Assembly (NCBI GenBank): GCA_020722005.1
Contig: DYLP01000012.1
Location: forward strand, 1 to 60,182
Direction of reading: 5' to 3'
DNA: 60,182 nt
From: Melioribacter roseus
Lineage (GTDB): Bacteria; Bacteroidota; Ignavibacteria; Ignavibacteriales; Melioribacteraceae
Of the stretch, positions 21,376-26,379 are shown piece after piece (positions within the stretch are counted from its first letter, which is position 1; the number at the start of each line of letters is the position of its first letter). The notes beneath the pieces are model-generated. The model was not told where the DNA came from and did no database searches. It was given only the letters and a program-made list of their open reading frames with translations. The position numbers and the translations under genes are program-made.

Positions 21376-21800
21376 AACAGATGAATCGTGTCTGTAAGCC
21401 GAATTCTGTAATCCGCCAGGGGCGGACGGCAGTTATTTATCTTGACCCGGTATTACTACCGGGTTCCAGCGGTCTACCCGAAGGTACTAAAGGCGAACAA
21501 CCTCTTTCCCGTCAAAACGGGAAGACCTTCTGCTTGACCTTGCTCCAGGTGGGGTTTACCTTGTCCTGCCAGTGACAGGATCCCGTAACGGGACCTTCGA
21601 CATTACTGCCGAAGCGGTGAGCTCTTACCTCACCTTTTCACCCTTACCCCAACTAAAGTCAGGGCGGTCTGTTTTCTGTGGCACTATCCGTGTTCCGGAT
21701 AAACCGGAACCCCGGGTGTTACCCGGCACCTTGTTCTGCGGAGTTCGGACTTTCCTCCCCTTACATATCGGGGCAACTGCCCAACACGATTCATCTGCTC
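21376..21800 (-). ncRNA. rnpB: RNase P RNA, bacterial type A
   Basis: Ribozyme component of RNase P, about 425 nt, on the minus strand. Read on that strand, the 5' part contains the conserved GAGGAAAGTCCG (complement of 21746-21757) followed by the CAGAACAAGGTGCCGGGTAA type region. The 3' part contains ACAGAATTCGGCTTA (complement of 21395-21409), which forms helix P4 with the 5' element. The ends pair as helix P1 (GATGAATCGTGT against ACACGATTCATC). Frames open through this region on the other strand and are not genes. Ends are approximate. Confidence 0.95.
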
Positions 21801-23315: not shown

Positions 23316-24044
23316 ATGGAACAGCTGAACTTAAATATCTTTAATATCTTTATTACCTCTGCAGACGATGCAGAATTAGCAGAATATAAATTGCTGGCAG
23401 CACTGAAAAATTACAAAGAAGAATTCCATAAATATCGGCTCTATCCATTCTTCGGTGAAATTGTTGATGTTAGCAACCAACTACGTCAGCTAATTTACAG
23501 CAAAGAAGAATTTAATAAACACCGTTCAAAAAAAATAACCGGCATTGATCTGGAAAATCAACAATTGATTTACGAATACACCGAAGAGACCCTGAGCGAA
23601 GAAAAAATATCGCGCGTCTTTTCATTTATTGAATGGGCTCTGCCAAAGATTAAAGAAACTCTGGAAGAAGGAGCGGCAATTTATGATTTCGTTGAAAGCA
23701 ATATTGAGATAAAAGAAATTGGTTTGCTCCCGATTTACAAAGACGAAGGTTACTTTTTCGTAAGGAACAATCTGGAGCGAATGCTCTATATCTATAAATT
23801 TTCAATGGCAAAGGTTGTCAATTCAAACGTTCCATTCCAGTCGCTAAAAACAAATTTCGTTGAAGTCTTCAAAGAAGAAACAGCAGTTGTACCGCCGGAG
23901 GCAATTAAACTGGAATTAATCAAAAAATATCCGGACCTGCCAAATCCGGCGACATACAATCTTGATACGGATGTCGATTTCCCGTTCAACGAGACTGTGC
24001 TTCCAGTAGCAAAGCGTAAGTTTATTCGCTTCCTTGCCGCTTAG
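23316..24044 (+). CDS. Protein of unknown function
   Basis: I do not recognise this 242-residue protein. It has no signal peptide, membrane segment or catalytic motif that I can see. The sequence is rich in Glu, Lys and aromatic residues, predicted mostly helical in the first 150 residues, with a proline-rich part near 195-225. A strong ribosome site CGGAGGTTCTATGG supports translation. Its 3' end overlaps by 23 bases the end of a radical SAM pseudogene on the other strand. It stands alone with about 220 bases of AT-rich DNA upstream. Confidence 0.7.
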   Translation: MEQLNLNIFNIFITSADDAELAEYKLLAALKNYKEEFHKYRLYPFFGEIVDVSNQLRQLIYSKEEFNKHRSKKITGIDLENQQLIYEYTEETLSEEKISRVFSFIEWALPKIKETLEEGAAIYDFVESNIEIKEIGLLPIYKDEGYFFVRNNLERMLYIYKFSMAKVVNSNVPFQSLKTNFVEVFKEETAVVPPEAIKLELIKKYPDLPNPATYNLDTDVDFPFNETVLPVAKRKFIRFLAA

Positions 24045-24774
24045 GTACGGAACGTAAGAAAATGCCGAACTGCTTTTGTTCCTCGAGGCGGCACGACCAT
24101 ACGAGGTTTCCGTTCCATACCGTAATATCCGGACAGCCGTCGCATATGCTCTGCCGTCCGTCCTGCATAAAATCGACCGGCTGAATGAAAAGGATTGTCC
24201 GCATGTGAACTTTTCGGAAAATATTTAACGGATTTTTAAGATAATTTGCAAATGCCTTTCGAACTCTTTTGTCGAACAGGAAAGCGAGTAGCATCGTGGA
24301 GCGCCCCATCGATGCAAGAGTCGGAGACGCATACGAAAGATATGTTCACTTCAGAAGATGATGAAAAGTCATCACCATTTCCATGAACTTTGCGCCTCCA
24401 TAACCGTAAATTTCTCCTTTCGAACCAAAGCGTTCCGTCAAAACCATTTGAAAGAATCAACTTTTTCAGTGCCGTTGAGGTAAGCAGATGGACTAAATTC
24501 GGGATAGATTTTCTGCGCTTCGGCTACCATATCGATAGAAAGGATATCAATTTTTCGTTCGTTATCAGAATGATACGCAATAGTCTGCCAGATGATTTTT
24601 TGCCCGCCCGCATACCAATCAAACGGTAGATTCGGAACGACGTGACGAAACGCAATGAAAACCGTCGTATGCAAGATTACACATTGCAGTTGGTTCAAGC
24701 CACGAAATTGCATTATCTGCCAGATTCCATGGTAACCGATATAATTCCCTGTGATTTACCGCCTGACTGTTCAT
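24022..24774 (-). pseudogene. Radical SAM protein remnant
   Basis: Starts well (GGGTCAAAATG at 24774, MNSQAVNHRELYRLPWNLADNAISWLEPTAMCNLA, shown here in pieces) up to the first Cys of a CxxxCxxC cluster near 24680. At that point the reading frame changes and the core of the domain is gone, which indicates a deletion. The C-terminal half continues as VPNLPFDWYAGGQKIIWQ, then a one-base loss near 24440 shifts frame, then an in-frame TGA at 24348-24346 breaks LLK*TYLSYASP. The end is readable (FIQPVDFMQDGRQS, CDGCPDITVWNG, CRLEEQKQFG). Radical SAM identity rests on the N-terminus and the C-terminal Cys motif. Confidence 0.75.
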
Positions 24775-24896: not shown

Positions 24897-25389
24897 TTAT
24901 TTATTAAATGTAGCATTTGCCCACGTATAAAATTCTACCAGATTATATATAATTATTTCTTCGTTTTTATTTTCTTCAGTTGAGTATTTATTTTGTTTCA
25001 CCGATTTTTTAAGCCACTCTATTGCGCCATGTTTCCATCCTTTTCCATCGATTAAAATCATTACGGTATTTTCAGGCATTGCTTCTATTGCATTCAAATA
25101 AAGGTATGGCAATTTTTCATCCACCGATCCAGAAACTTGTTGCCATTTACATTCGATACGAATATTCAGGTTATATTTCTTAGATTTAAGTAGAAATTCA
25201 GTTTTACCTTTATGGTTATATATTGTATCAAAAGGAACGTTTTCCAGTAAAATCTCATCACCGTATTTTTCTTTATTTTTTCCCAGTCCCGGTATTTTAC
25301 AAGTTCAAATCCTTTTGCTGTTAATACGGTTTTAACAGTTGTCTCAAGGAGATTTCCTGAGATGTTACTTTTTTTTTACCTTTTTTCAT
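24897..25389 (-). pseudogene. PD-(D/E)XK endonuclease next to Dam methylase, two frameshifts
   Basis: The ATG at 25389 directly follows the stop codon of the methylase (TAGATG). The start reads MKKGKKK, then frame is lost in a run of nine A. Adding one A restores SNISGNLLETTVKTVLTAKGF. A second loss in a run of six A (GGGAAAAAATAAAG) is also fixed by one A, giving NKEKYGDEILLENVPFDTIYN. The frame then runs to the stop with RIECKWQQVSGSVDEKLPY (E-x-K nuclease core) and VMILIDGKGWKHGAIEWLK. With both bases restored the product is 164 residues. Frame shifts in A-runs could also be sequencing error or phase variation. Confidence 0.8.
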
Positions 25390-26379
25390 CTATACAATAG
25401 AATAATTTGTAATAACAATTTCATTAATTGAACCTCGTTTATTGGAATCGGAATTTATCATTCGCTTCGCAGGTACTCTTAATATATTATAACCAACATA
25501 TAATTTATCAAAAAAATCATCATCCGGGTTTATGTTTTTCGGATCGGAGTTACTTAACATCAACTTCAGACCTTTGCTGTCGAGTTCTCTGAACAAAGCT
25601 GCTAATTGAATTTGCTCGTTATCACTAAAATCATACTTGCTATACGCTTTAAAATTCGCAGTTTTGCTTATTGGTCTATAAGGTGGGTCAAAGTAAATGA
25701 ATGCTTCTTCTTTTAAGTCAGAAACAACTTGTTTAAAATCTGCAACCTTAATTTCTGCAATCTGCAATACCTGGCTTACGGCTAATAAATTTTCTTCATC
25801 ACAAATAGTAGGATTATCATAGTCGCCGTGCGGTGTATTAAATTCACCCTTTGAATTTACTCTATAAAGTCCGTTAAAACATGTCTTGTTCAAAAAGATA
25901 AGCTGTGCAGCTCGAGGTATCCACTTTTCAGAATAATGGCTATAATCAATGTTGAAACGTTGCAAATTATATTTGGTTCGTTGAGCATAATAAAAATCTT
26001 TTCTTCGGTCCTTGTCAAATTTTAGATAATATTTCTGGTAATTATATAAGAACTCAAGGAGTTTAGATACATCTCTTTGAATTACAGTGTAAGTTAATAT
26101 CAGTTCTTCATTTATATCATAAAGGTAAGCGCTCTTAATGTCGTAATTCTGCGCAATATCGAAAAAAACTGCACCGCTTCCTAAAAATGGTTCGTAATAA
26201 GTTCCTATTTTCCTCTCTTTAAGTTCATGCGGATACAGTTCCTGAAATTTGTCGAGCAACTGACTTTTACCGCCTGCCCATTTTAAGAAAGGACGGGCTC
26301 CGACTTTATAAACATTAAAAAGGTCTCTGACTTCAGTAGCACTAATCTTGGGGTTTATATTTTCTAAGGGAGAATTCAT
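25390..26379 (-). CDS. DNA adenine methylase, D12 class (Dam/DpnM-like)
   Basis: N6-adenine methyltransferase of 329 residues. AdoMet-binding motif FLKWAGGKSQLLDKF lies near residues 33-47, followed by YYEPFLGSGAVFFDI and the catalytic DPPYRPIS near 235-242. Domain order is that of the alpha group (Dam, M.DpnII), which usually modify GATC. The specificity is inferred. It is coupled to a broken PD-(D/E)XK nuclease gene, so it is the surviving half of a restriction-modification pair, or a solitary methylase at present. Confidence 0.92.
   Translation of the reverse strand: MNSPLENINPKISATEVRDLFNVYKVGARPFLKWAGGKSQLLDKFQELYPHELKERKIGTYYEPFLGSGAVFFDIAQNYDIKSAYLYDINEELILTYTVIQRDVSKLLEFLYNYQKYYLKFDKDRRKDFYYAQRTKYNLQRFNIDYSHYSEKWIPRAAQLIFLNKTCFNGLYRVNSKGEFNTPHGDYDNPTICDEENLLAVSQVLQIAEIKVADFKQVVSDLKEEAFIYFDPPYRPISKTANFKAYSKYDFSDNEQIQLAALFRELDSKGLKLMLSNSDPKNINPDDDFFDKLYVGYNILRVPAKRMINSDSNKRGSINEIVITNYSIV

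Follow-up and report, generated by a model that had tools for sequence, protein, structure and literature searches.

A Dam-type methyltransferase gene beside a frame-broken PDDEXK_11 nuclease gene in Melioribacter roseus: a two-gene restriction-modification system probably in decay

Is a nuclease gene that follows an intact Dam-type methyltransferase gene, but whose reading frame is broken in two runs of A, the remnant of a decaying restriction-modification (R-M) system, a switched gene in its off state, a gene rescued by slippage, or an intact gene misread in the assembly? The question is raised by a locus of Melioribacter roseus, which lies in a stretch of 60,182 nucleotides (hereafter the window) that makes up the whole of one contig (C45) among the 79 into which a 2.66-Mb genome is assembled (Table 1). 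Degraded nucleases have been described beside solitary methylases, with decay starting at the nuclease (Seshasayee et al., as cited in an excerpt of PMC6471742), and homopolymer phase variation is known for Type I and Type III R-M systems (excerpt of PMC12707154). Slippage on nine A in transcription is known in many bacteria (excerpt of PMC1088944), and some R-M genes that look frameshifted in published genomes have proved to carry sequencing errors (excerpt of PMC3488263).

Table 1. Features of the locus in the window, with the runs of A given as read on the coding strand of the nuclease gene.
Feature	Position	Strand	Evidence
Left flank, conserved, 242 aa, 93% identical in same-genus genome	23316..24044	+	
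Radical-SAM pseudogene, downstream of nuclease	24022..24774	-	Comparison with same-genus genome
Nuclease gene, PD-(D/E)XK (PDDEXK_11), putative partner restriction endonuclease, two frame changes	24897..25389	-	PF20472, three-frame translation
Open C-terminal nuclease piece with IECKWQQ core	24897..25283	-	Frames, PF20472
A6 run (T6 on +), second frame change, 5' of catalytic core	25276..25281	-	Three-frame translation, alignment
A9 run (T9 on +), first frame change, few codons past nuclease start	25369..25377	-	Three-frame translation
Dam/DpnII-type N6-adenine DNA methyltransferase, intact, 329 aa	25390..26379	-	TIGR00571, PF02086, 2dpm
Right flank, conserved, 980 aa, CBM_4_9 and Por_Secre_tail, 83% identical in same-genus genome	26838..29780	-	

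The methylase ORF is without internal stop and matches TIGR00571 (dam) over its full length (E 4.1e-78, 262.7 bits, curated cut-off 114.85) as well as PF02086 (E 1.8e-57), and its closest solved structure is the DpnII methylase 2dpm (E 5.9e-54, over residues 23-327). It is the only D12 methylase above cut-off in this genome, and it is predicted to methylate GATC. The tetranucleotide occurs 96 times in the window against 201 expected, and 181 times against 306 expected in 80 kb of a same-genus genome that has no Dam, i.e. it is avoided there too; its scarcity does not discriminate between the readings of the locus. Full-length similarity is common to the window Dam, M.DpnII (DpnM) and the Dam family, and the gene for M.DpnII is likewise paired with a nuclease gene in an R-M system. 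The ORF carries a DPPY motif, which we take to be a further likeness to these proteins. Unlike M.DpnII, the window Dam has a PDDEXK_11 protein as its partner, and a DpnII-family nuclease was not found in this genome.

The preliminary description had placed the ATG of the nuclease gene directly after the methylase stop, and the ATG at 25389 indeed abuts the Dam stop codon. The C-terminal piece of the nuclease matches Pfam PF20472 (PDDEXK_11) with an E-value of 1.7e-42 and 145 bits (cut-off 23.7), and a six-frame family search recovered both pieces at the locus (25253-25369 and 24906-25280). Three-frame translation places the nuclease sequence in three frames, which switch at the A9 and A6 runs, and both frame changes were confirmed by alignment to an intact relative. 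Two one-base losses had been proposed for these runs; the frame changes stand, while a one-base loss in the A9 run is not callable with confidence, and the size and sense of its length change are not settled, because the relatives are without an A9 run and differ in length there. The IECKWQQ core, described earlier as intact, is among the family-invariant residues (27 columns, defined from an alignment of 29 intact relatives), all 27 of which are retained in the window pieces.

An active Type II R-M system would consist of an intact methylase adjoining an intact endonuclease, whereas here the endonuclease frame is broken twice. The sole ORF of at least 60 aa within the nuclease gene (24897-25124) starts with a GTG beyond the catalytic core, and the C-terminal frame has no ATG, GTG or TTG 5' of the core. 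As judged from these frames, no protein with the catalytic core is predicted to be obtainable from a normal start. Among the closest loci, intact nucleases with a clear start have 162-163 aa, and more distant ones reach up to about 170 aa. When an intact relative was modelled with AlphaFold2 (pLDDT 88), its best structural match was BstEII (VIA-align, Z 9.6, 132 residues, rmsd 3.7), and many further restriction enzymes followed at lower scores; Foldseek matched the model to no PDB entry at E 0.001 or better, and a PDB sequence search with the nuclease piece gave no more than one uninformative match (E 1). The structural match supports a restriction-endonuclease fold for the model, not a specificity.

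That no other damage is visible, as had been stated, is true inside the nuclease gene but not next to it, where the radical-SAM homologue has three more, mutually independent lesions: about 470 bp are deleted internally, one base is lost near 24441, and there is a nonsense codon. The size of the deletion was taken from BLAST coordinates, as a MAFFT alignment misplaced the N-terminal piece of the radical-SAM gene. The reference for this comparison was a same-genus genome in one contig of 3.3 Mb (G001), which is collinear with the window and has an intact radical-SAM homologue of 407 aa (L069, 3443-4666). Between the same two flanks, this genome carries the 407-aa gene, a 237-aa gene with a weak match to Type II restriction enzymes (PADLOC, E 1.4e-8), and a gene for a 1042-aa Type ISP/IIG-like restriction-methylation protein, and neither the window Dam nor PDDEXK_11 has a match in it. 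At L069 4771-9043, the Type ISP/IIG-like R-M protein and the 237-aa restriction-type gene stand in place of Dam and PDDEXK_11. On gene order, the site is an apparent exchange (swap) point for R-M genes. A second PDDEXK_11 gene, a DpnII-family gene or a Type ISP gene was not found among the 79 contigs of the Melioribacter genome. The locus thus combines an intact methylase and a degraded adjoining nuclease with no cognate elsewhere among the PDDEXK_11 and DpnII families, as expected of a solitary methylase that arose by decay. Elsewhere in the window, a bacterial class A RNase P RNA (21379-21792, minus strand; Rfam RF00010, 269 bits) sits in a GC-richer gap separating a 574-aa and a 384-aa gene.

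Relatives of the pair were collected from a scan of species genomes (42 loci) and, in addition, from plasmid, viral contig and whole-genome searches. In most loci a Dam-family gene lies directly upstream of PDDEXK_11, and the pairing is found again in different phyla and on a plasmid: WP_203115844.1 from an Alicyclobacillus plasmid shares with the window nuclease both the family and the position just after a Dam-family methylase, and differs from it in that the window copy is frame-broken. In the order to which the window belongs the nuclease is rare, with a match in 6 of 164 genomes, five of them above the curated cut-off. A search of a phage collection gave no match, and one of viral contigs gave one distant match. 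No paper naming PF20472 was found in a limited literature search. In four cyanobacterial loci (L039, L041, L042 and L044), the Dam-family gene is not upstream of the PDDEXK_11 gene but downstream of it, on the opposite strand, and the two converge.

For a count of intact and broken copies, 25 distinct loci were retained, the window included, in which Dam is about 65% or more identical. Left out were L075 and L076 (the same DNA as L006 and L021), L029 and L082 (contigs that begin inside the nuclease), and those in which Dam is below about 57% identity, lies on the other strand or was not found (L002, L024-L028, L030-L035, L038-L047, L050, L078, L079 and L084-L086). The distant loci were not classed for intactness, and L030, L038, L045 and L046 are without an ATG near the expected start. 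Dam is without a stop in all 25 loci (in L005 and L017 it is partial, as the contig starts inside the gene), while the nuclease is broken in eight, namely the window, L017, L020, L036, L037, L090, L007 and L013. The lesions comprise an A8 run that is off-frame after the start (L017), an in-frame stop (L020), small mid-gene losses (L036, an isolate genome with a stated coverage of about 294-fold), an internal deletion (L037) and a one-base change past the core (L090). In L007 and L013, about 1.1 kb with a relative of the 237-aa gene of the same-genus genome lies between Dam and a nuclease remnant, which looks like a nuclease swap beside a retained methylase. The two inserts (L007 2200-3330 and L013 1450-2560) are 74% identical to each other and belong to two separate lineages.

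Mapped on the Dam tree, in which L008 and L009 were both kept though their Dam rows are identical, the broken-nuclease label requires seven changes, at least three of which are forced by well-supported branches, and its clustering does not exceed that of shuffled labels (a value as low came from 343 of 500 shuffles). Because the eight broken loci are scattered over the tree in this way, loss of the nuclease with retention of Dam has probably happened several times.

The age of the break in the window was approached through the substitutions in the nuclease pieces, in a comparison that excluded L036, L037 and L090 (whose frame is broken within the part compared) as well as L009, L075 and L076. 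Against 16 intact relatives, the window nuclease has a pN of 0.168 and a pS of 0.804, close to the 0.128 and 0.802 of intact-intact pairs. These values, together with the complete set of invariant residues, suggest that the break is recent and that the pieces still look constrained. The ratio of nuclease pN to Dam pN has a median of 1.01 for the window, above the intact-intact median of 0.83, yet single intact loci span 0.70-1.20 and the window lies inside this spread; therefore, the age is bounded only roughly.

How far the breaks could be homopolymer errors of the assembly, which would leave the nuclease intact and the R-M system working, was judged from the remainder of the window. In favour of such errors, both frame changes lie in A-runs and nothing else in the nuclease is broken, the nuclease and 38 other window ORFs contain no run of nine apart from the A9 run, and the precedent from published genomes cited above applies. 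Against them, the 38 other ORFs contain 145 homopolymer runs of at least six, none of which breaks a frame, as compared with two of the four such runs in the nuclease (Fisher p 0.0005). This contrast shows that the breaks are local and says nothing special about A-runs, because slippage prefers runs under every explanation. Two errors in one gene of 0.5 kb and none in 55 kb would also be odd. Apparent non-triplet indels within intact genes, seen between the window and the same-genus genome, were mostly offsetting nearby pairs or at gene ends, and a cleaner test of synteny was whether each ORF of the same-genus genome is recovered in one piece. This held for 37 of the 40 ORFs of at least 100 aa in the shared stretch, while one (radical SAM) is in three pieces and two are absent. 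Four ORFs other than the radical-SAM gene have one stop each, in every case among the first 18 residues, where the predicted start is over-long, and these stops were not taken as damage. That the damage is clustered locally speaks for real decay over careless sequencing, and decay is favoured further because the radical-SAM lesions, which are not of the homopolymer kind, include a large deletion, which homopolymer error could not produce. Sequencing error, which had been put forward from the start as one reading, is hence disfavoured, no other gene of the window being frame-broken at a run, and we regard it as unlikely, though less firmly so for the A9 run.

Phase variation, also proposed in the preliminary description, would have slipped-strand changes in an A-run toggle the restriction gene while Dam stays constantly on. 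The A9 run lies a few codons past the start, where a switch works best, and a homopolymer frame break near the start codon is a likeness to the phasevarions (excerpt of PMC12707154), although these are Type I and Type III systems, whereas here the tract is not conserved, the gene has two breaks and the window is known from one genome sequence. Phase variation was examined by seeking the tract in relatives, and neither its length nor its position is conserved: start-region A-runs longer than six occur in the window (A9) and in L017 (A8), both off-frame, and are of at most six in the other 23 of the 25 loci, so that a run of at least eight is found in two of 25. Intact relatives have A6-A8 runs elsewhere in the nuclease gene with the frame unbroken, most broken relatives carry other kinds of lesion, outside A-runs, and one switch would not restore the window gene, as its second break lies in an ordinary A6 run. 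Phase variation is very unlikely for the window copy, because a switch tract should be common to relatives and a switchable gene should be without a second break. At L017 816-1298, the nuclease frame is fully open, but the A8 run puts the ATG that adjoins the Dam stop out of frame; the frame change, read by eye, is opposite in sense to that of the window. Of all the loci, this one remains the strongest candidate for an A-tract switch, and it weakly keeps alive an occasional switch of this kind. A variant in which some Dam-PDDEXK_11 members evolved an A-tract just after the nuclease start (A9 in the window, A8 in L017, a Bacteroidales locus) that serves restriction as a contingency switch, with methylation staying on and the window copy as the switched-off form that later acquired a second break, is if anything slightly more doubtful still. 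It is hardly credible that RNA polymerase or the ribosome rescues a little full-length nuclease by productive slippage on the A-runs, as two separate slips would be required, the later one on a run of only six A, relatives do not share the tract, and the opposite sense of the L017 change does not fit a common frameshifting mechanism; the slippage-prone nature of nine-A runs in transcription speaks for it.

We therefore consider a recently inactivated restriction gene beside a retained methylase, i.e. a two-gene Type II R-M system in decay, to be the probable state of the locus, and prefer it over a switch or an error because of the wrecked neighbour, the 145 unbroken runs elsewhere and the eight of 25 loci with a broken nuclease. 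The very recent inactivation considered at the outset gains support from the pseudogene next door, from the repeated loss of the nuclease beside a retained Dam in close relatives, and from the constrained look of the pieces. Counted against decay are the position of both breaks exactly in A-runs, expected equally from slippage, phase variation and sequencing error, and the off-frame A8 run at the same place in L017, where the rest of the frame is open.

As suggested by families, gene order and fold, Dam of the intact relatives would methylate the GATC sites of the host, and the small PD-(D/E)XK enzyme would cut unmethylated invading DNA. In this genome, the nuclease would recently have lost its frame at the two A-runs, leaving no core-bearing protein from a normal start, at a putative R-M swap site where the radical-SAM gene beside it decayed too. 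The methylase was kept and is presumably now a solitary methyltransferase, so that only methylation could remain. An intact methylase with a degraded nuclease has been reported before, where restriction genes decayed next to solitary methyltransferases (Seshasayee et al., in the excerpt of PMC6471742); to such cases the window adds a broken nuclease in several related copies and the decay of an adjacent gene. The frame break itself is ordinary, and the locus is a further instance of R-M decay of an already known type. It would offer a clear recent snapshot of this decay, in which the nuclease goes first and the Dam-like methylase stays, and it appears to link PDDEXK_11, a nuclease family that seems not to have been characterised, with Dam as the usual partner.
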